Shown here one piece after another: positions 1,649-11,300 of a stretch of 64,000 nucleotides of DNA. The stretch is from Helicobacter sp. 13S00401-1. GTDB lineage: Bacteria > Campylobacterota > Campylobacteria > Campylobacterales > Helicobacteraceae. The stretch spans positions 1 to 64,000 of the forward strand of contig NZ_MLAR01000005.1 in the NCBI RefSeq assembly GCF_002272925.1, read 5' to 3'. Numbering within the stretch: position 1 is the stretch's first letter; each line of letters starts with the position of its first letter. The notes beneath the pieces are model-generated. The model did no database searches and had not been told where the DNA came from. It saw only the letters and a program-made list of their open reading frames with translations. A program made the translations under genes and the position numbers.

Positions 1649-2146
1649 CAAATAAGAGTCCCCTAAATTCTTATGTGTTATACTACCATCATAAATATAT
1701 GTACTTCCTAAGGCGTTATAAGAGTCCCCTAAATTCTTATGTGTTATACTCTAGTAGGATTTAAGTTACTTAAGTTTTCAGTTATAAGAGTCCCCTAAAT
1801 TCTTATGTGTTATACTCTTCTAACTATGTGTTCACCACTTTGAAAAGTTATAAGAGTCCCCTAAATTCTTATGTGTTATACTCTTAAAAAGACATCGCCA
1901 TACTTGGTAATTGTTATAAGAGTCCCCTAAATTCTTATGTGTTATACTCTAGTAGCACTGAAGTAGATGCTAAATTAGGTTATAAGAGTCCCCTAAATTC
2001 TTATGTGTTATACTGAAAAAAATATCAAAGAAAATGTTCCCGTAGTTATAAGAGTCCCCTAAATTCTTATGTGTTATACTCTGGTTAAATTTAGGCATAT
2101 ATTGAACATAGTTATAAGAGTCCCCTAAATTCTTATGTGTTATACT
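1649..2146 (+). CRISPR. CRISPR array 1: 8 repeats, 7 spacers
   Basis: Eight 36-nt repeats start at 1649, 1715, 1781, 1847, 1913, 1979, 2045 and 2111, separated by seven 30-nt spacers (exact 66-nt period). Repeats start GTTATAAGAGTCCCCTAAAT and end TGTGTTATACT. The crRNA sense is the plus strand, because the GTTATAAGAGTCCCC end pairs with the antirepeat of the tracrRNA just downstream. The first repeat (1649) has lost only its first three bases. The 3' end of each repeat contains TGTTATACT, an extended -10 box, so crRNAs can start inside spacers as known for type II-C loci of Neisseria and Campylobacter. Spacer 4 (1883-1912) matches a spacer of array 2. Confidence 0.98.
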
Positions 2147-2226: not shown

Positions 2227-2232
2227 TAGTAT
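2227..2232 (+). promoter_or_regulatory. Possible -10 box of tracrRNA 1
   Basis: TAGTAT at 2227-2232 lies about 8 nt before the first base of the antirepeat (2240). It occupies the position equivalent to the better extended -10 box (TGCTATACT) in front of tracrRNA 2. The match to TATAAT is weak, so this is a positional argument. Confidence 0.35.
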
Positions 2233-2239
2233 TTCAGCT

Positions 2240-2378
2240 GATAGGGATTCAGAGGACTCTTATAATAAGACTAGGATGCACGTCCTAGTTGTACACACCG
2301 GTTAACTCTGTTAACTGTGGCTTCCAAAAGCCGAGATTTTACAAAAGTCTTGTCTTGCGGATATTTAATATTTTTTTT
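2240..2378 (+). ncRNA. tracrRNA 1, matched to array 1
   Basis: The antirepeat at 2240-2266 (core GAGGACTCTTATAAT) aligns without gaps to the complement of the array 1 repeat over 27 nt; several differences are G-U wobbles. It is followed by stem-loops: 2269-2276/2283-2290 (ACTAGGA...TCCTAGT), 2299-2306/2310-2317 (CGGTTAAC...GTTAACTG), 2319-2323/2328-2332 (GGCTT...AAGCC) and 2334-2340/2344-2350, then a run of eight T at 2371-2378 as terminator. It sits directly downstream of array 1 on the same strand. Length and architecture fit Cas9 guide-scaffold RNAs; the exact ends are inferred. Confidence 0.85.
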
Positions 2379-2549: not shown

Positions 2550-2600
2550 GGGGACTCTTATAACATAAATAAATTTAAATCTATTGGGAGTGGGATTATA
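2550..2600 (-). ncRNA. Solitary crRNA-like unit between tracrRNA 1 and cas2
   Basis: On the minus strand: TATAAT (2600-2595), then exactly 30 nt (2594-2565), then GTTATAAGAGTCCCC (2564-2550), which is the tracr-pairing first 15 nt of both repeats. The rest of the repeat is absent. Spacing and order equal those of a real array unit (repeat-end promoter, spacer, repeat start). The last 13 nt of the spacer-like part (TAAATTTATTTAT, complement of 2565-2577) also occur at 3065-3077 in the cas2/cas9 intergenic region. It lies in the 3' region of cas2. It is either a dedicated regulatory crRNA-like RNA or a decayed array relic; expression is not shown by sequence. Confidence 0.5.
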
Positions 2601-2668
2601 CTCCATAAATAGTCAAAAATCATTTATATAATAAAGTTTTACCTACACTTTTAATTTATCTTTAAAAC

Positions 2669-2980
2669 TTAGAAGTCAAATAAACTTCTACCTAAATCTA
2701 TCTTTTCGCTGCGTTTTTTAGGAGCTCCTATAAGTATGTGCATATTTTCATACTGTCTATCAGTTATCTCTAGCATCTTAACGTTTCCATTCTTTGGTAG
2801 GGCAGTTTTTATCTTAGCGCATAGTCTTTTTGAAGATTCCACACCTTTTATAATCCTACTATAAACAGAAAACTGAATCATTAAAAATCCAAGTCTAAGC
2901 AAGTGTGCCCTAAACTTAGATGCCTCGCTCCTTTCTTCGCTAGTTGTAACTGGCAAATCAAACATAACCAAAACCCTCAT
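2669..2980 (-). CDS. cas2: CRISPR-associated endonuclease Cas2
   Basis: Cas2 forms the integrase complex with Cas1 that inserts new spacers. The 103-residue product starts MRVLVMFDLPV, with the conserved Asp of the FDLP strand, and keeps the small ferredoxin-fold length and the R-LGFLMIQFSVY segment typical of type II-C Cas2. The start at 2980 is preferred over the in-frame ATG at 3010 because GGAGAA lies about 9 nt before it and family members begin here. The position is odd: in most II-C loci cas2 follows cas1 on the same strand, but here it is upstream of cas9 and divergent from it. Confidence 0.93.
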   Translation of the reverse strand: MRVLVMFDLPVTTSEERSEASKFRAHLLRLGFLMIQFSVYSRIIKGVESSKRLCAKIKTALPKNGNVKMLEITDRQYENMHILIGAPKKRSEKIDLGRSLFDF

Positions 2981-3010
2981 TAATATTTCTCCATTCACAA
3001 AGTTCTCCAA

Positions 3011-3126
3011 TAGTCTTTTTATAAGAATAAGAATTAAATCTTATAACTATATTTTTAGAGTATAATAAATAAATTTATATATAATACTTAATTAATAAAA
3101 ACAAAATTAATACATAAGGTTCAAGC
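3011..3126. promoter_or_regulatory. Shared cas2/cas9 control region
   Basis: This AT-rich divergent intergenic region holds an inverted repeat, TTATAAGA (3019-3026) and TCTTATAA (3039-3046). Read on the minus strand, the same stretch resembles a CRISPR repeat lacking its GTCCCC core (GTTATAAGA...AATTCTTAT). Two TATAAT boxes for cas9 lie at 3061-3066 and 3080-3085. Between them, 3065-3077 is identical to the seed-proximal 13 nt of the solitary crRNA-like unit at 2565-2577. An AAGG ribosome site precedes the cas9 ATG. The layout suggests autoregulation, but the sequence alone does not prove it. Confidence 0.55.
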
Positions 3127-6100
3127 ATGGGTAAGGATAACGTAAAGACCAAAAAAGTACTAGGACTTGATATAGGGACAGAATCTATTGGTTATGCCAT
3201 AGTTGAGATTCATGAAAGCACAAAGAAAGATAAAGAAAGAGAAAGAGAGTGTAAAGAAAAAAGCCACATAGTGTTGTCTGGCGTTAGGCTTTTTGATAAA
3301 CTAAGTGAAGATAGGTTTAGCGTACCTTTAAGTGCTGTGCGCAGAGCCAATAAAAGTAATCGCAATCGCTTTGTTCGCCGCCATAAACGTATGCAAGAGA
3401 TGGAATCTATCTTTAGAGATATAGGTTTTTTAAACTCAGACTATGACCATGATAGTTTCTTTATAAACTTCCTTGGAAAGATAAGAAAGACAAGGGATAA
3501 CAAAACGCTAGTTCCATATAACCTACGCGAACTTGGAATCAAAGAAAGGCTGGAAAAAGATGAAATCTTTGCCATTATGTATCATATATGCAGGCACAGA
3601 GGCTATCGTTCAGGTCCAGTGTTAGAGGAATCTAAAAAAAAGAAAGACACAGATAAAGAAGGCAGTAAAACTAAGATCATAAATGCTAAGAAACATATGG
3701 GGGATTCTACATTTGGAGCGTACTTAGTAAAAAAGGCTGCAGAAGTAGAAACGCAACCTGCTTATAAAAAATATAGAAATGTATCAATGGCAGATAAGGA
3801 TATGATAGAAGATGAAGTGAGGAAGATTCTGCAAAAACAAGCAGAGTTTTACAAAGAGCTAGATTCTAACTTTATAGACAAGGTAGTAGATATTATAAAC
3901 TATAAAGCCCCAGCCCTAAGTACAGAACAGCTTATAAAGATGCTAGGCAAGTGTACTTTTGAGAAAGATGAACTCCGTGCACCTAAACATGCCTTAACTA
4001 CTATACTTAGCGTCCTCTTGCAAAAGTTAAATAATCTTAAGTTTGATGATAAAAGTCTTAGCACAGAACACTTAAGTATCCTAACAAGTCTCTTTTTTGA
4101 AAAAGGATGTCAGCTAACCTATAAAGACTTAAGGGATGTCTTAATATTGCAAGCTAAGTTTAAGGATATAAACTATGCACAAAAATGCCAAGAGTTTATA
4201 AAAAAAGGCTTAGAAGGGTGCAAGCTTAGTGATGAAAGCACTATTAAAACATTCCCTGCCTTACGCTATCAACTAGCTAGTAGTATAAATGATGAAACAA
4301 ACTTTATATCCTTGCTTGAAAGCAGCCTTGATAAAAATGGAAATATTCCAGATTATAAAAAGTTTTATAGCAAGATTAAAAAAGATTATGAAGCTATAGA
4401 AAAAAATGAAATTTTTTATAAGCAAGATAAGATAAAAAAGATTTTAGAACATTACTCTGTAAATGATTTAGCTTCAGCTTTAGGTAATAGAGAATATGTA
4501 GATTCTATAGTTGAAATCTTTAGCATACAAAAAGACTATGTGACTTTTCAAGAAAAGTTACAAAAAGAGTTAGATAGCCAAGGTAGACTAGAGCTAGAAG
4601 AAAGCCTTATAGGTCTTTTTGAAAGTGGCATATTAGGCACCTCTAACCTAAGTCTAAAAGCCCTAAAAAATATAGAGCCCTTTTTATTGCAAGGGCAAAA
4701 GTATATAGAAGCTTGCCAGAGTGCAGGCTATAAACTCCAAGATAACACTAAAAAATATAAACACTTACCAACTATAACAAAGGCTCAAAAAGAAAACCTT
4801 ATCTTTGCAACTAATCCAAAACTTAGAAAGATAGCCAATCAAGTAGTGATACTAATAAATACTATCCTTAAAAAGCGCCATAAATTTGACTATGTGCATA
4901 TAGAGCTAGCACGCGACTTGCCAAAAACTGAAGAGGAAAAAAGAAGAGAGATAGAGCAAAATAAGTTTTTTAAAAATGAAAATGAAAATGCAAAACAGCT
5001 TGTAGATAAAAACGCAAGTAAAAAAACTTGGCTAAAAGCAAGACTGCTTTTAAATCAAGACTATCAGTGTCCATACTGTAAAGATGAAAACGGAAATCCA
5101 AAAAAGCTAAATAAGCACGAACTTGATAGCTATGAGATAGATCATATTATCCCTTACTCCATAAGTTTTGATAATAGCTTTTCAAATAAGATTCTAGTCC
5201 ATAGAGATTGTAATCAAAAAAAGGGCAACAGGATACCTATGCTTATGTTTACTAATGATGAAGACAAAGAAGCATATATAAGCGGGGTTAAAATATTGCA
5301 CCTACAAAAGACAAAAGAGGCAAACTTGCTTATCACAAAAGAAGAGCTTGAGACTAAACTTGAAGATAGCTTAAAAAGTGGGCGTGTGTTAAGTGATACA
5401 AGATATGCAGGCAAGTTTATAAAAAACTATATAGAGCGCCATCTTCAGTTTGAAGGCAACTGTAGTGATCTTACAGATAAAAATGAAGATGGCACAACAC
5501 GCCAAAGGGTGTATGTTCGTAATGGCAACACAACCACTATCATGCGTAATCTTTGGCATATAGGAACGCAAGAAAAAAATGAAGATTCTGTTAGCATAGA
5601 GCGTTATAAAAAAGATAGAAAACTTCATACTCACCACGCAGAAGATGCCATAATCATAGCTTGTACCACTCAAAGCATCATACAAAAGGTATCAAACGAA
5701 GCAATCAAGCATGAAAGTGACTTTACTAACGGAGAAGAAGCTAAGTCTAAAAACGCCAAGATAGAAAAAGCACTTTTAAAAGCACTGCATAATAGCGAAC
5801 CTATCTTAAACATGAAAGAAAAAGTGCGTCAAAACTTACAAGAAATCTTCCCAAGCCGCAAGGTAGATAGACTAAAAGAGCACGGCGATACTCACGAAGA
5901 GACTATAAACTCAATACGTTATAAAAAAGATGGAAGGTATCTTAAAGTAACTAAAGATATGTTTCAACAACTTAAGATAAATCCTATACCAACATTATCT
6001 ATACCTCTTGAAAGCCTAAATATAGAATCTTTAGAACTTTTATATGGTAAAGATGATAATAATAAGAAGCTATATAGTTTACTAAAAGAGTTTTTACAAA

Positions 6101-7137
6101 ATGAAAAGAAAAAAGATTGTCCAGCATATAAAAAACTACTAAAGATTTTTCAAAAAAAAGAGGAAGTTGAGCTTTTAAAGTGTGAGATAGTCATAAAAGA
6201 TCTAAGTAAGTACAGTGCAGAAAATCTAGTGGTGATAAAAAGAGTTTTACTTAGAGATCTACTATCAAAGCTAGATATAAAAGGCGAAAAAGATAAAAGT
6301 AAAATCAAACAAAACATAAATGAAACTTTGGAATCTCTAGTCCAAAAAGATAGTGGAGCTAAGTATCTATATAACTTGCTAGTAACTTATATTATAAGAG
6401 ATGAAGGAGATGAAAACTCTACTAGTTTTAAACCTTTACTAGATTACTTCCATAAAAAAAATAAGGTAGAGCTTTTAGAGTGCAAGATAAGTATAGAAGA
6501 TAAAGGAACTGATAATAATATAGTTAATAAACTATTTGTGCGTGATGGCGTGGCCAATAAGGGATCACAACAAAAATTTCTTCTTTATAAAACCAAAAAA
6601 GATACTTTTCATATAGGTGTAGTGTATTTCTCAGACAAGATTAAAGATGATAAAACTGCTAAAGTTCAAATAGTCGCAAAAATACCTTACGATAAAAGAG
6701 ATATGAGCAATAAGATAGATGAGAGTGGAAACCTAGTTTATAAATACGTAGATACACTTTATAAAAATGATCTTATATATTATGAAATTAAAGAGGATAA
6801 TAAAACAAAAGAGTATGTATATTACCTAAGTGGCATCGACATAACAAATGCACAAGTCAATCTTATACATCCAATAATACATCAAAAATTAGCATTAGTA
6901 AAAGGTGGTAAATTAACAGAGCAGATAGAACAAAAAACACCAACTATAGGCGGCTTACAAGCTAAGATAGTTAGACTTGAAAAATTGCAAGTTGATGTTT
7001 TGGGAAAGGTTTATAGAAGAAATAAAGAAGGCAGATACGTCTATTTCCCTAAAGCTAAGAAAATCATGCTAAGAGACTTAAGAGAGTATGGAGAGGAGCA
7101 AGCAAAGCTTATAAGATCTTACAAAGCAAAGGAGTGA
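3127..7137 (+). CDS. cas9: CRISPR-associated endonuclease Cas9 (type II-C-like, 1336 aa)
   Basis: RNA-guided double-strand DNA nuclease. Visible parts: RuvC-I with LGLDIGTESIGYAI (Asp15); Arg-rich bridge helix RRANKSNRNRFVRRHKR near residue 75; a long helical REC lobe; RuvC-II HIELARDLPK (Glu593); HNH domain with CPYC and DHIIPYS (Asp672-His673); RuvC-III HHAEDA (836-841, Asp840); then a WED/PAM-interacting C-terminus. All catalytic residues are present. At 1336 aa it is long for II-C enzymes (about 1000-1100). Part of the excess is an apparent internal duplication (about 982-1045 and 1081-1141). cas1 follows after 3 nt; the tracrRNAs and arrays flank the pair. Confidence 0.97.
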   Translation: MGKDNVKTKKVLGLDIGTESIGYAIVEIHESTKKDKERERECKEKSHIVLSGVRLFDKLSEDRFSVPLSAVRRANKSNRNRFVRRHKRMQEMESIFRDIGFLNSDYDHDSFFINFLGKIRKTRDNKTLVPYNLRELGIKERLEKDEIFAIMYHICRHRGYRSGPVLEESKKKKDTDKEGSKTKIINAKKHMGDSTFGAYLVKKAAEVETQPAYKKYRNVSMADKDMIEDEVRKILQKQAEFYKELDSNFIDKVVDIINYKAPALSTEQLIKMLGKCTFEKDELRAPKHALTTILSVLLQKLNNLKFDDKSLSTEHLSILTSLFFEKGCQLTYKDLRDVLILQAKFKDINYAQKCQEFIKKGLEGCKLSDESTIKTFPALRYQLASSINDETNFISLLESSLDKNGNIPDYKKFYSKIKKDYEAIEKNEIFYKQDKIKKILEHYSVNDLASALGNREYVDSIVEIFSIQKDYVTFQEKLQKELDSQGRLELEESLIGLFESGILGTSNLSLKALKNIEPFLLQGQKYIEACQSAGYKLQDNTKKYKHLPTITKAQKENLIFATNPKLRKIANQVVILINTILKKRHKFDYVHIELARDLPKTEEEKRREIEQNKFFKNENENAKQLVDKNASKKTWLKARLLLNQDYQCPYCKDENGNPKKLNKHELDSYEIDHIIPYSISFDNSFSNKILVHRDCNQKKGNRIPMLMFTNDEDKEAYISGVKILHLQKTKEANLLITKEELETKLEDSLKSGRVLSDTRYAGKFIKNYIERHLQFEGNCSDLTDKNEDGTTRQRVYVRNGNTTTIMRNLWHIGTQEKNEDSVSIERYKKDRKLHTHHAEDAIIIACTTQSIIQKVSNEAIKHESDFTNGEEAKSKNAKIEKALLKALHNSEPILNMKEKVRQNLQEIFPSRKVDRLKEHGDTHEETINSIRYKKDGRYLKVTKDMFQQLKINPIPTLSIPLESLNIESLELLYGKDDNNKKLYSLLKEFLQNEKKKDCPAYKKLLKIFQKKEEVELLKCEIVIKDLSKYSAENLVVIKRVLLRDLLSKLDIKGEKDKSKIKQNINETLESLVQKDSGAKYLYNLLVTYIIRDEGDENSTSFKPLLDYFHKKNKVELLECKISIEDKGTDNNIVNKLFVRDGVANKGSQQKFLLYKTKKDTFHIGVVYFSDKIKDDKTAKVQIVAKIPYDKRDMSNKIDESGNLVYKYVDTLYKNDLIYYEIKEDNKTKEYVYYLSGIDITNAQVNLIHPIIHQKLALVKGGKLTEQIEQKTPTIGGLQAKIVRLEKLQVDVLGKVYRRNKEGRYVYFPKAKKIMLRDLREYGEEQAKLIRSYKAKE

Positions 7138-7140
7138 TAA

Positions 7141-8082
7141 GTGGCAACTTTAAACGTCTATGTAAGTACAGATACTATACTAAGCATAAAACATGGGAAT
7201 CTTTTACTCTGTGATAAAGATAAGCTAAAAGAAGAAGTTAGTCTGCCTTTAGACTTGTTGTCATCTGTAGTTATAGATTCTTATAATAGTGTGCTTACTA
7301 AGCACGTTTTAGTCTCCTTAGCGCAAAATAACGTGCTTTTAGTGCTTTGTGATAGCACGCACATGCCAACTTCTATCTTACTTCCCTTTCAAACACATAG
7401 CACAGCTTCTTTGCACATACGCAAGCAGGTAAAGATGCGTCAAAAACAGTTAGGACTTTTGTGGCAAGAGATAATCAAAGCAAAGATTACAAACTCTGCA
7501 AACTTTCTGCATTTAAAACAAAAAGAAAGCTATAAGATCTTAAAGACCATTGCTTCAAAAGTCTTGCCAGATGATAAAGGTAACAAGGAAGCAGTTGCCG
7601 CAAAGGAATACTTCAAAGCACTTTTTGGGGCTAGGTTTAACAGACGAGATGAAAACCCAGCCAACATTATGCTTAACTATACCTATGCACTGCTTCGTGC
7701 AAAGTGTGCGAGAGTTTGTGCTGCTAAGGGTTTGCTTCCTAGTCTTGGCATACACCATAACTCTTTTTTAAATAGCTTTAATCTTGCTGATGATTTTTTA
7801 GAAGTTTTTAGGGCTTTTGTGGATGCCTATGTTACTAACTATCTTGAAGTTTGTGGAGTTGCTAATAGCATAGAAAGTCAAGAGTTTATACTAAGCCCAA
7901 GTGATAAAAAGCATCTACTTAGAATCTTTGATCACAAAATCTGTGTGGATGATAAATATTATTTGATAGATACTGCAATAGAGCAAAGTATAGGGTCTTA
8001 CTTACAAGTTATCTTAGGAGAGAGGGAACATCTGCAACTACCTGTGTTAGATGAAAGATATATAAAAAATATAGCTAGTTAG
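7141..8082 (+). CDS. cas1: CRISPR-associated integrase Cas1
   Basis: Metal-dependent DNA integrase of spacer acquisition, acting with Cas2. The 313-residue product has the usual Cas1 length: an N-terminal beta domain (MATLNVYVSTDTILSIKHG) and a helical catalytic domain with NIMLNYTYALLRA, GIHHNSF (catalytic His) and LADDFLEVFRAF (acidic metal ligands). It starts at GTG, preceded by AAAGGAG about 9 nt upstream, and lies 3 nt after the cas9 stop, so the two genes form an operon. No cas2 follows; that gene lies divergently upstream of cas9. No csn2 or cas4 is present, consistent with subtype II-C. Confidence 0.95.
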   Translation: MATLNVYVSTDTILSIKHGNLLLCDKDKLKEEVSLPLDLLSSVVIDSYNSVLTKHVLVSLAQNNVLLVLCDSTHMPTSILLPFQTHSTASLHIRKQVKMRQKQLGLLWQEIIKAKITNSANFLHLKQKESYKILKTIASKVLPDDKGNKEAVAAKEYFKALFGARFNRRDENPANIMLNYTYALLRAKCARVCAAKGLLPSLGIHHNSFLNSFNLADDFLEVFRAFVDAYVTNYLEVCGVANSIESQEFILSPSDKKHLLRIFDHKICVDDKYYLIDTAIEQSIGSYLQVILGEREHLQLPVLDERYIKNIAS

Positions 8083-8114
8083 TGATAGGTTGATGAACAA
8101 AAAGCGTGTCTATA

Positions 8115-8258
8115 TGAAAAATGTTTTATATATTTCTTAAGACAAGACCCAGAAGATCTTGGCTTTAAGAAAACCGTGGTAAATCCACGTGTGTACGACT
8201 TAAGACTTTAAAATCTTAAGTCTTATTATAAGAGTCCCCTGAAATCCTACCTTCAGAG
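8115..8258 (-). ncRNA. tracrRNA 2, matched to array 2
   Basis: Read on the minus strand, the antirepeat at 8250-8225 matches the complement of the array 2 repeat over 26 nt with one internal change (T to C) besides the last base. It is followed by a perfect 9-bp stem (8222-8214 with 8205-8197, GACTTAAGA/TCTTAAGTC), the linker GTACACAC shared with tracrRNA 1, a CGTGG/CCACG stem (8189-8175) and a 7-bp stem CAAGATC/GGTCTTG (8161-8143). The 3' end near 8115-8121 is weak (ATTTTT). The RNA lies directly downstream of array 2 on the same strand and convergent with cas1. Confidence 0.85.
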
Positions 8259-8264
8259 ATTTGA

Positions 8265-8350: not shown

Positions 8351-11300
8351 ATTATAACATGTAGGATTTTAGGGGACTCTTATAACATTTAAGTACTCTA
8401 AAAACTACTAGTATAAATTATAACATGTAGGATTTTAGGGGACTCTTATAACGCGTTTGAGTGGTGCGGCAAATCCTTTGGAATTATAACATGTAGGATT
8501 TTAGGGGACTCTTATAACCTTACTAGCTATATCAAATCCAAAAATTGAATTATAACATGTAGGATTTTAGGGGACTCTTATAACAAAACAATCTAATAAC
8601 GGAATTATTGCAATATTATAACATGTAGGATTTTAGGGGACTCTTATAACAAAAAATATAGCTGAGTTTGCAAAAATTGAATTATAACATGTAGGATTTT
8701 AGGGGACTCTTATAACTAGCTGATATTTCAGTTAACGGCAATGATTATTATAACATGTAGGATTTTAGGGGACTCTTATAACTGTTTTTATTTGCGTCTT
8801 TGCTGAAACGCGATTATAACATGTAGGATTTTAGGGGACTCTTATAACCTCTAATAAGCTTAGCCCTACTTTAATAGAATTATAACATGTAGGATTTTAG
8901 GGGACTCTTATAACTGGATTTACGAGTGGCTTTTATATCAAGTGGATTATAACATGTAGGATTTTAGGGGACTCTTATAACTAAATCACTAGCCATAAAT
9001 ACACGTTTGTATTATAACATGTAGGATTTTAGGGGACTCTTATAACACGAGATAGCTAAAAAGCTTTATGATGCTAATTATAACATGTAGGATTTTAGGG
9101 GACTCTTATAACTTTTATTCTTATGCAGCAAAGAAAAGCATAATTATAACATGTAGGATTTTAGGGGACTCTTATAACATAAAAGTGAAGCACCCAAAGT
9201 AGAGACTGATTATAACATGTAGGATTTTAGGGGACTCTTATAACTTTTTTGTTTTTTAAATTCATAAACTATTAATTATAACATGTAGGATTTTAGGGGA
9301 CTCTTATAACACAAGAACAAACTGAAGAAGAGACAATAAGATTATAACATGTAGGATTTTAGGGGACTCTTATAACTGTTGCTAGTACTCCAACGATTGC
9401 AGGGCGATTATAACATGTAGGATTTTAGGGGACTCTTATAACTAAAGATAATGAAACAGCTTTAAAGTACTTATTATAACATGTAGGATTTTAGGGGACT
9501 CTTATAACAAATAATTTCTAAGAGTTTCATCTGTTATGATTATAACATGTAGGATTTTAGGGGACTCTTATAACTTGGTGTTCCAATAGCCATAATATTT
9601 TTGTATTATAACATGTAGGATTTTAGGGGACTCTTATAACCCTATATTCCTTGCCTGATGATGAGGTAGGATTATAACATGTAGGATTTTAGGGGACTCT
9701 TATAACCAGAAAAAATCATAAAAGATTATCAAGATAGAATTATAACATGTAGGATTTTAGGGGACTCTTATAACCCATAAAGTGTATGTTTTATAGCTTG
9801 CCTCATTATAACATGTAGGATTTTAGGGGACTCTTATAACTTGTTTCCTTCTAAAGTTAGTATCTTTACAATTATAACATGTAGGATTTTAGGGGACTCT
9901 TATAACTAGTTGATAGGGCTAGGATAGTTAAAGACTATTATAACATGTAGGATTTTAGGGGACTCTTATAACTCTATAACTTCTAGACTAAAGTTTTCTA
10001 CTATTATAACATGTAGGATTTTAGGGGACTCTTATAACCATTCAAAAAGCACAGTTGACTTATAGACTATTATAACATGTAGGATTTTAGGGGACTCTTA
10101 TAACTCTATAGGCCTAAGAGAGTATGACTACGAGATTATAACATGTAGGATTTTAGGGGACTCTTATAACTTTAAAGCGAAAGATTAAAGGCTAGGCACA
10201 ATTATAACATGTAGGATTTTAGGGGACTCTTATAACCAAAAACCACTACTTCATTTGGGTAGCAAGATTATAACATGTAGGATTTTAGGGGACTCTTATA
10301 ACTATTGAAAGTATAGGTTTAGACATATTTTAATTATAACATGTAGGATTTTAGGGGACTCTTATAACGTAAGACATTATTAGCAACTAAGCGCCTATAT
10401 TATAACATGTAGGATTTTAGGGGACTCTTATAACCCAAAAGCTCCCCAAAACAACAAACCACTAAATTATAACATGTAGGATTTTAGGGGACTCTTATAA
10501 CAGAAATTACCAAGTACGGCGATGTCTTTTTATTATAACATGTAGGATTTTAGGGGACTCTTATAACTAAATCGCTAGCCATAAAAACACTTTTTTTATT
10601 ATAACATGTAGGATTTTAGGGGACTCTTATAACCTCCTTCAATGAGCCTTTATAATGCCCTTGATTATAACATGTAGGATTTTAGGGGACTCTTATAACC
10701 GCAAGTATCTAAAGTATCTAATATCATCTATTATAACATGTAGGATTTTAGGGGACTCTTATAACAAATAACCACTAAACCCATTTTGCAATCTAATTAT
10801 AACATGTAGGATTTTAGGGGACTCTTATAACACCTTTGTTCATATCGAACAACCTAATCTAATTATAACATGTAGGATTTTAGGGGACTCTTATAACTAA
10901 CATAAATCCATTTGTAAAATTTTTAGAATTATAACATGTAGGATTTTAGGGGACTCTTATAACTAAGTTTTGAATTTGGGCTCTTGCTTGCTTTATTATA
11001 ACATGTAGGATTTTAGGGGACTCTTATAACCATAGCATAAGCTATATCTCGCTCGCCTATATTATAACATGTAGGATTTTAGGGGACTCTTATAACTAAA
11101 AAAACTGGGATAAGTGTAGGTGAGGCATTATAACATGTAGGATTTTAGGGGACTCTTATAACTCCCTTAAGCGGTCGTTTATATAAATAGTTATTATAAC
11201 ATGTAGGATTTTAGGGGACTCTTATAACAAAAGAGGATAGATTATAACTACTTTAGAATTATAACATGTAGGATTTTAGGGGACTCTTATAACTCTTTTA

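Follow-up and report, generated by a model that had tools for sequence, protein, structure and literature searches.

A solitary crRNA-like unit beside a type II-C cas locus of Helicobacter probably guides Cas9 to its own divergent cas2/cas9 promoter

CreR RNAs, crRNA-like RNAs that regulate cas genes, have been described for type I and type V-A CRISPR systems; they derive from stand-alone units adjoining the cas genes, show limited seed-side complementarity to a cas promoter and steer the system's own effector, Cascade or Cas12a, to repress the system (PMC12737573). In type II-A Streptococcus, the tracrRNA gene gives rise to tracr-L, a natural single-guide RNA that steers Cas9 to its own cas promoter, where Cas9 binds without cutting (PMC8616872; PMC11417352); the short seed match of tracr-L beside a PAM is given as 11 nt (PMC8616872) or, in another review, as 9 bp (PMC8730458), and it has been described as absent outside some II-A systems (PMC8616872). 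The scaRNA of Francisella (type II-B), a small RNA near the CRISPR locus whose diverged repeat pairs with tracrRNA, represses lipoprotein genes without cutting via 15 bp (PMC8730458). In Neisseria (type II-C), the target of the meningococcal scaRNA is efeO mRNA, and no complex of this RNA with cas9 DNA was found (PMC13431127); an in-silico survey of scaRNAs mentions neither Helicobacter nor autoregulation (PMC6199352). In type II-C, promoters are part of the repeats (PMC12080349); accounts of self-regulation in this subtype are few, and such self-control is so far known from other CRISPR types.

We analysed a 64,000-nt stretch of the genome of Helicobacter sp. 13S00401-1 (the window; genome G000) and compared it with Helicobacter sp. 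11S02629-2 (genome G001), the closest relative in the comparison set and the sole other species of the genus in it, whose corresponding contig is NZ_MLAN01000025 (L031). The cas genes, arrays and tracrRNAs of the window are as follows.

1649..2146, plus strand: CRISPR array 1, 8 repeats, the first of them degenerate (repeat search)
2231..2370 (approximate), plus strand: tracrRNA 1, anti-repeat at 2245-2266 (repeat complementarity, fold)
2669..2980, minus strand: cas2, divergent from cas9 (Pfam CRISPR_Cas2, NCBIfam TIGR01573; ribosome-binding site and ATG at 2980)
3127..7137, plus strand: cas9, 1336 aa, HNH and RuvC-III domains present
7141..8082, plus strand: cas1, directly 3' of cas9 (TIGR03639, type II Cas1)
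8105..8262 (approximate), minus strand: tracrRNA 2, anti-repeat at 8225-8255, best partner of the solitary unit (duplex energy)
8351..11294, minus strand: CRISPR array 2, 45 intact repeats and 44 complete spacers, with a degenerate repeat just past 11294

Consistently with type II-C, the locus holds cas9, cas1 and cas2 only, with no csn2 or cas4, and its repeats end in a -10 box; the gene order departs from the II-C norm in that cas2 is divergent. The cas1 gene is probably co-transcribed with cas9. At 1336 aa, Cas9 is longer here than in most of the family (about 1000-1070 aa) and than in G139, the genome with the nearest Cas9 outside the genus (1263 aa). In both genomes there are two arrays, and every array has a separate tracrRNA (in the relative, on contigs L034 and L031); in G000 the upper stems of the repeats and anti-repeats of the two array/tracrRNA sets have diverged together.

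Outside both arrays, beside the cas genes, lies a single crRNA-like unit on the minus strand (2600-2550), with the following parts.

2595..2600, minus strand: -10 box TATAAT of the unit, standing where an array unit has the -10 box of a repeat 3' end (read from the sequence; 6/6 identical in L031)
2565..2594, minus strand: spacer of 30 nt, CCCACTCCCAATAGATTTAAATTTATTTAT (read from the sequence; equal in length in Helicobacter sp. 11S02629-2)
2565..2577, minus strand: seed of 13 nt, identical to the cas2/cas9 promoter site (sequence comparison)
2550..2564, minus strand: half repeat GTTATAAGAGTCCCC, 15 nt, 15/15 identical in L031, pairing with tracrRNA 2

This anatomy (TATAAT at 2600-2595, 30 nt, half repeat at 2564-2550) is exactly that given in a preliminary description made from the letters alone. 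GTTATAAGAGTCCCC equals bases 1-15 of the 36-nt repeat of both arrays; the remaining repeat bases are absent, the sequence 3' of the half repeat bears no relation to the CRISPR repeat, and a search for a terminator 3' of the unit found none. The geometry is that of one array unit, whose repeats terminate in a -10 box: like a type II-C array unit (PMC12080349), it consists of a -10 box, a 30-nt spacer and a repeat start, but it is single and has a truncated repeat, and its spacer is conserved between species and aimed at the host's own promoter. These features (half repeat only, conserved spacer, host cas promoter as target) rule it out as one of the usual array spacers directed at mobile elements. 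Near-matches elsewhere in both genomes, such as GTTATAAGATTCCC, were rejected as further units because they have no -10 box at the correct distance upstream.

The truncated repeat should bar the unit from acquiring new spacers; the unit would amount to a crRNA gene with one spacer, locked in this form. From its -10 box, transcription would begin near 2588 and yield an RNA with the half repeat at its end and a predicted guide of about the final 23-24 nt of the 30-nt spacer. As with the diverged repeat of scaRNA, the half repeat can pair with a tracrRNA: its duplex with tracrRNA 2 has 15-16 bp and -29.7 kcal/mol, versus -39.9 for tracrRNA 2's own repeat, and the duplex in L031 has -28.5 kcal/mol. 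Only the upper stem is lacking. The unit RNA may in this way be loaded onto the Cas9 of the adjacent locus. We ruled out that the unit is itself a tracr-L, since its guide is joined to a half repeat and not to an anti-repeat, and the tracrRNAs lie elsewhere.

The spacer points to the region between cas2 and cas9, at the following site.

3065..3094, minus strand: target protospacer between cas2 and cas9, with a 13-nt seed match at 3065-3077; 17/20 PAM-proximal and 1/10 distal positions match
3057..3064, minus strand: flank of the target on the PAM side, TATACTCT, in agreement with the inferred NNTASWTT at every position but 7, which is C

Minus-strand 3077-3065 repeats exactly the 13 spacer bases adjoining the half repeat; within the 64-kb window, no other seed-anchored match reaches 10 nt. 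Our comparison bore out both the identity of 2565-2577 with 3065-3077 and the drop to five of the next eight bases beyond it, as first reported. The match had also been placed between two TATAAT boxes, of which the first (3061-3066) in fact overlaps it by 2 nt, and the control region, put at 116 bp, is about 146 bp long because cas2 most likely begins at the ATG at 2980. The target lies 62 nt upstream of the cas9 start here and 61 nt upstream in Helicobacter sp. 11S02629-2. In both species, 17 of the 20 PAM-proximal positions of guide and target are complementary and only 1-2 of the 10 distal ones, which is the pattern expected for Cas9 binding without cutting. The guide is antisense to the plus strand at 3065-3094 and would pair with the cas9 non-template strand, a favourable orientation for a transcription block.

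The motif beside the target was judged against a PAM of about NNTASWTT, which we derived from five protospacers in prophage-like contigs of G001, found by comparing the array spacers of both species with both genomes; the sites of the solitary units were excluded from the derivation. Two of the five protospacers are perfect and three have 3-5 mismatches; their 3' flanks are AATAGATT, ACTACTTT, GGCTCTTT, CCTAGATG and CTTGCTTT, and one of the contigs carries a terminase gene. The PAM sides of the promoter sites are TATACTCT in G000 and TTTAGTTT in L031 (NNTAC and NNTAG), with PAM scores in the top 1.8% and the top 0.4% of the positions of their own intergenic regions, respectively. Searches of GenBank phages and of plasmids with the complete or almost complete set of array spacers found no protospacer match; three spacer patterns run against IMG/VR gave one match, judged to be chance; phage relatives of the G001 terminase yielded no protospacers; and, outside the genus, a family-wide spacer BLAST gave nothing beyond weak matches.

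Given that the region is 78-86% A+T, we weighed whether the match could be a chance one in AT-rich DNA and the unit a functionless remnant of a decayed array. In dinucleotide shuffles of the intergenic region, the test that the preliminary description had asked for, a 13-nt seed-anchored match had P = 0.003, which places it above chance; as shuffles still reproduce it in 0.3% of cases, the match by itself is suggestive, not decisive. One of the 52 array spacer/repeat junctions also reaches 10 nt against the same region: spacer A2_38 (8783-8812) has a 10-nt seed match at about 3094-3103, upstream of cas9, which has no PAM and was judged to be chance. The combination of the 13-nt seed with NNTAS fell to about 7.5e-5 in shuffles. 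For the 11-nt match in Helicobacter sp. 11S02629-2 the shuffle P was 0.0007-0.0015, and the 11-nt seed with NNTAS arose in 0/40,000 shuffles. In pattern searches of both whole genomes, a 10-nt seed with NNTAS occurred once in the 1.84-Mb genome, at the cas promoter, and that of the relative once in G001, again at the cas promoter; neither genome has a second site of this grade, though weaker sites may exist.

The comparison of the two species speaks against chance. In L031 the solitary unit (minus strand; 30-nt spacer at 552-523, half repeat at 522-508) keeps the TATAAT, the spacing and the half repeat, and its seed matches 11 nt of its own cas2/cas9 region at 1034-1044, the only match of at least 9 nt in the 6.9-kb contig; a simple promoter scan of the L031 region found no sigma-70 promoter. 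Loss of the match in a relative that keeps the unit had been named at the outset as an outcome that would refute the autorepressor; the relative has retained both. The two target sites occupy identical alignment columns (MAFFT). The seeds differ between the species at 3 of 11 positions, the identical three changes are present in the respective targets, and each spacer matches the other species' region over only 6 and 4 nt. The -10 box (6/6) and the half repeat (15/15) are perfectly conserved, and 16 of the 20 PAM-proximal spacer positions (11-30) agree but only 5 of the 10 distal ones; the flanks of the unit agree at only 19/40 positions upstream and 12/40 downstream, and no array spacer is common to the two genomes. 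With a fitting PAM at both sites, a chance match in a decayed remnant is extremely unlikely. Matched changes are what should be seen for a guide and a site under joint selection; the unit is known from two species and the matched substitutions come from one sequence pair.

Conservation of the match with changed letters, the PAM, the uniqueness of the target in the genome and the pairing with tracrRNA agree with one another and support the autorepressor first proposed for this locus. On this sequence evidence, we consider it very probable that the solitary unit is a stand-alone II-C crRNA serving as a Cas9-guided autorepressor of cas9-cas1 and cas2. Since the guide matches only the switch region of the cas genes, beside the correct motif, Cas9 probably limits its own production through it. 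Cas9 would bind the cas2/cas9 site without cutting, because a PAM and an 11-13-nt seed match are present but the distal part is unmatched, and mismatches past position 11-13 should preclude cleavage. The bound Cas9 would cover the divergent promoters and thereby lower expression of cas9-cas1 and cas2. Repression would ease when ordinary crRNAs are abundant and compete with the unit RNA for Cas9; with guide and promoter site co-evolving, the set-point of repression would respond to crRNA load and to anti-CRISPRs.

Two other modes of action can be set against this one. Since the guide is antisense to the cas9 leader, Cas9 could bind or cut cas9 mRNA, leaving the promoter unblocked: 3065-3094 may fall in the 5' leader of cas9 if transcription begins upstream, and crRNA-guided, PAM-independent RNA targeting is described for C. 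jejuni Cas9 (PMC13431127). RNA targeting requires no PAM, yet highly ranked PAMs are present at both sites, and candidate -10 boxes within the target mean that the leader may exclude it; action on RNA therefore appears very unlikely to us. Repression might also concern just one of the divergent transcripts, cas9-cas1 or cas2, or chiefly another gene, as in the scaRNA regulon of Francisella, where other genes are controlled (PMC8730458). The target, however, lies mid-way in the 146-bp divergent region, which a Cas9 footprint would span, and neither genome has a second 10-nt seed site with NNTAS elsewhere; we hold so partial or so diverted a role to be exceedingly improbable, and prefer autorepression of both transcripts by promoter-bound Cas9.

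Among the known systems, the preliminary description had likened the unit to tracr-L and scaRNA, a comparison slightly off the mark: CreR is mechanistically closest, followed by these two. As with CreR, a stand-alone crRNA-like unit adjoins the cas genes and has limited seed-side complementarity to the cas promoter (13 and 11 nt, beside NNTAC and NNTAG), and the system's own effector would be steered to repress the system (PMC12737573). Unlike CreR, it would have Cas9 as its effector and depend on a tracrRNA, and it combines a -10 box of its own with only half a repeat. The solitary unit would thus work like CreR but stand outside its described members, because the locus encodes Cas9, Cas1 and Cas2. 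With tracr-L it shares the short seed beside a PAM in the system's own cas promoter; it differs in being a separate crRNA gene that leaves the tracrRNA unchanged. The likeness to scaRNA lies in a small RNA near the CRISPR locus, tracrRNA pairing and short complementarity, whereas the Francisella and meningococcal scaRNAs act on targets other than a cas promoter. In a literature search that covered only a minority of subscription papers, and so does not prove priority, no stand-alone crRNA that directs Cas9 to the promoter of its own gene came up.

The wider reading, that a stand-alone, tracrRNA-dependent crRNA gene steers a type II-C Cas9 to its own divergent cas2/cas9 promoter and extends CreR-type autorepression, with guide and site co-evolving, is in our view likely. 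If it is true, RNA-guided self-repression of Cas9 evolved in a second form besides tracr-L, by a route shared with types I and V-A, a stand-alone crRNA-like unit, and with a repeat pared to little beyond what tracrRNA pairing needs. Two species with different but matched pairs of seed and site would also offer a swappable natural assay of autorepression, crRNA competition and anti-CRISPR sensing.

We screened 86 further Campylobacterales Cas9 loci, 71 of which have an array that was detected, for a half repeat with a -10 box of its own and a seed match of at least 11 nt upstream of cas9, and found no such unit. The screen tolerated up to two mismatches across repeat bases 1-14 and would miss more degenerate units; besides tracrRNA anti-repeats, it yielded only low-quality matches with 8-10-nt seeds. 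G139, whose Cas9 comes closest among those from beyond the genus (36% identity), lacks a solitary unit and has its genes arranged in line as cas9-cas1-cas2. As none was found at the 86 other loci, the unit looks like a genus-level invention accompanying the divergent cas2/cas9 arrangement.

Further observations concern the array spacers. Spacers A1_4 (1883-1912) and A2_12 (10502-10531) derive from one target and are offset by 3 nt, and the targets of A2_11 (10568-10597) and A2_35 (8982-9010) are homologous; both pairs are repeated acquisitions against related mobile elements. Moreover, two spacers of Helicobacter sp. 11S02629-2 perfectly match its own prophage-like contigs (L080, 1485-1514, plus strand; L081, 15767-15796, plus strand) at sites with good PAMs, AATAGATT and CCTAGATG. 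Self-targeting of this kind suggests that the genome holds an anti-CRISPR or that Cas9 is strongly repressed.
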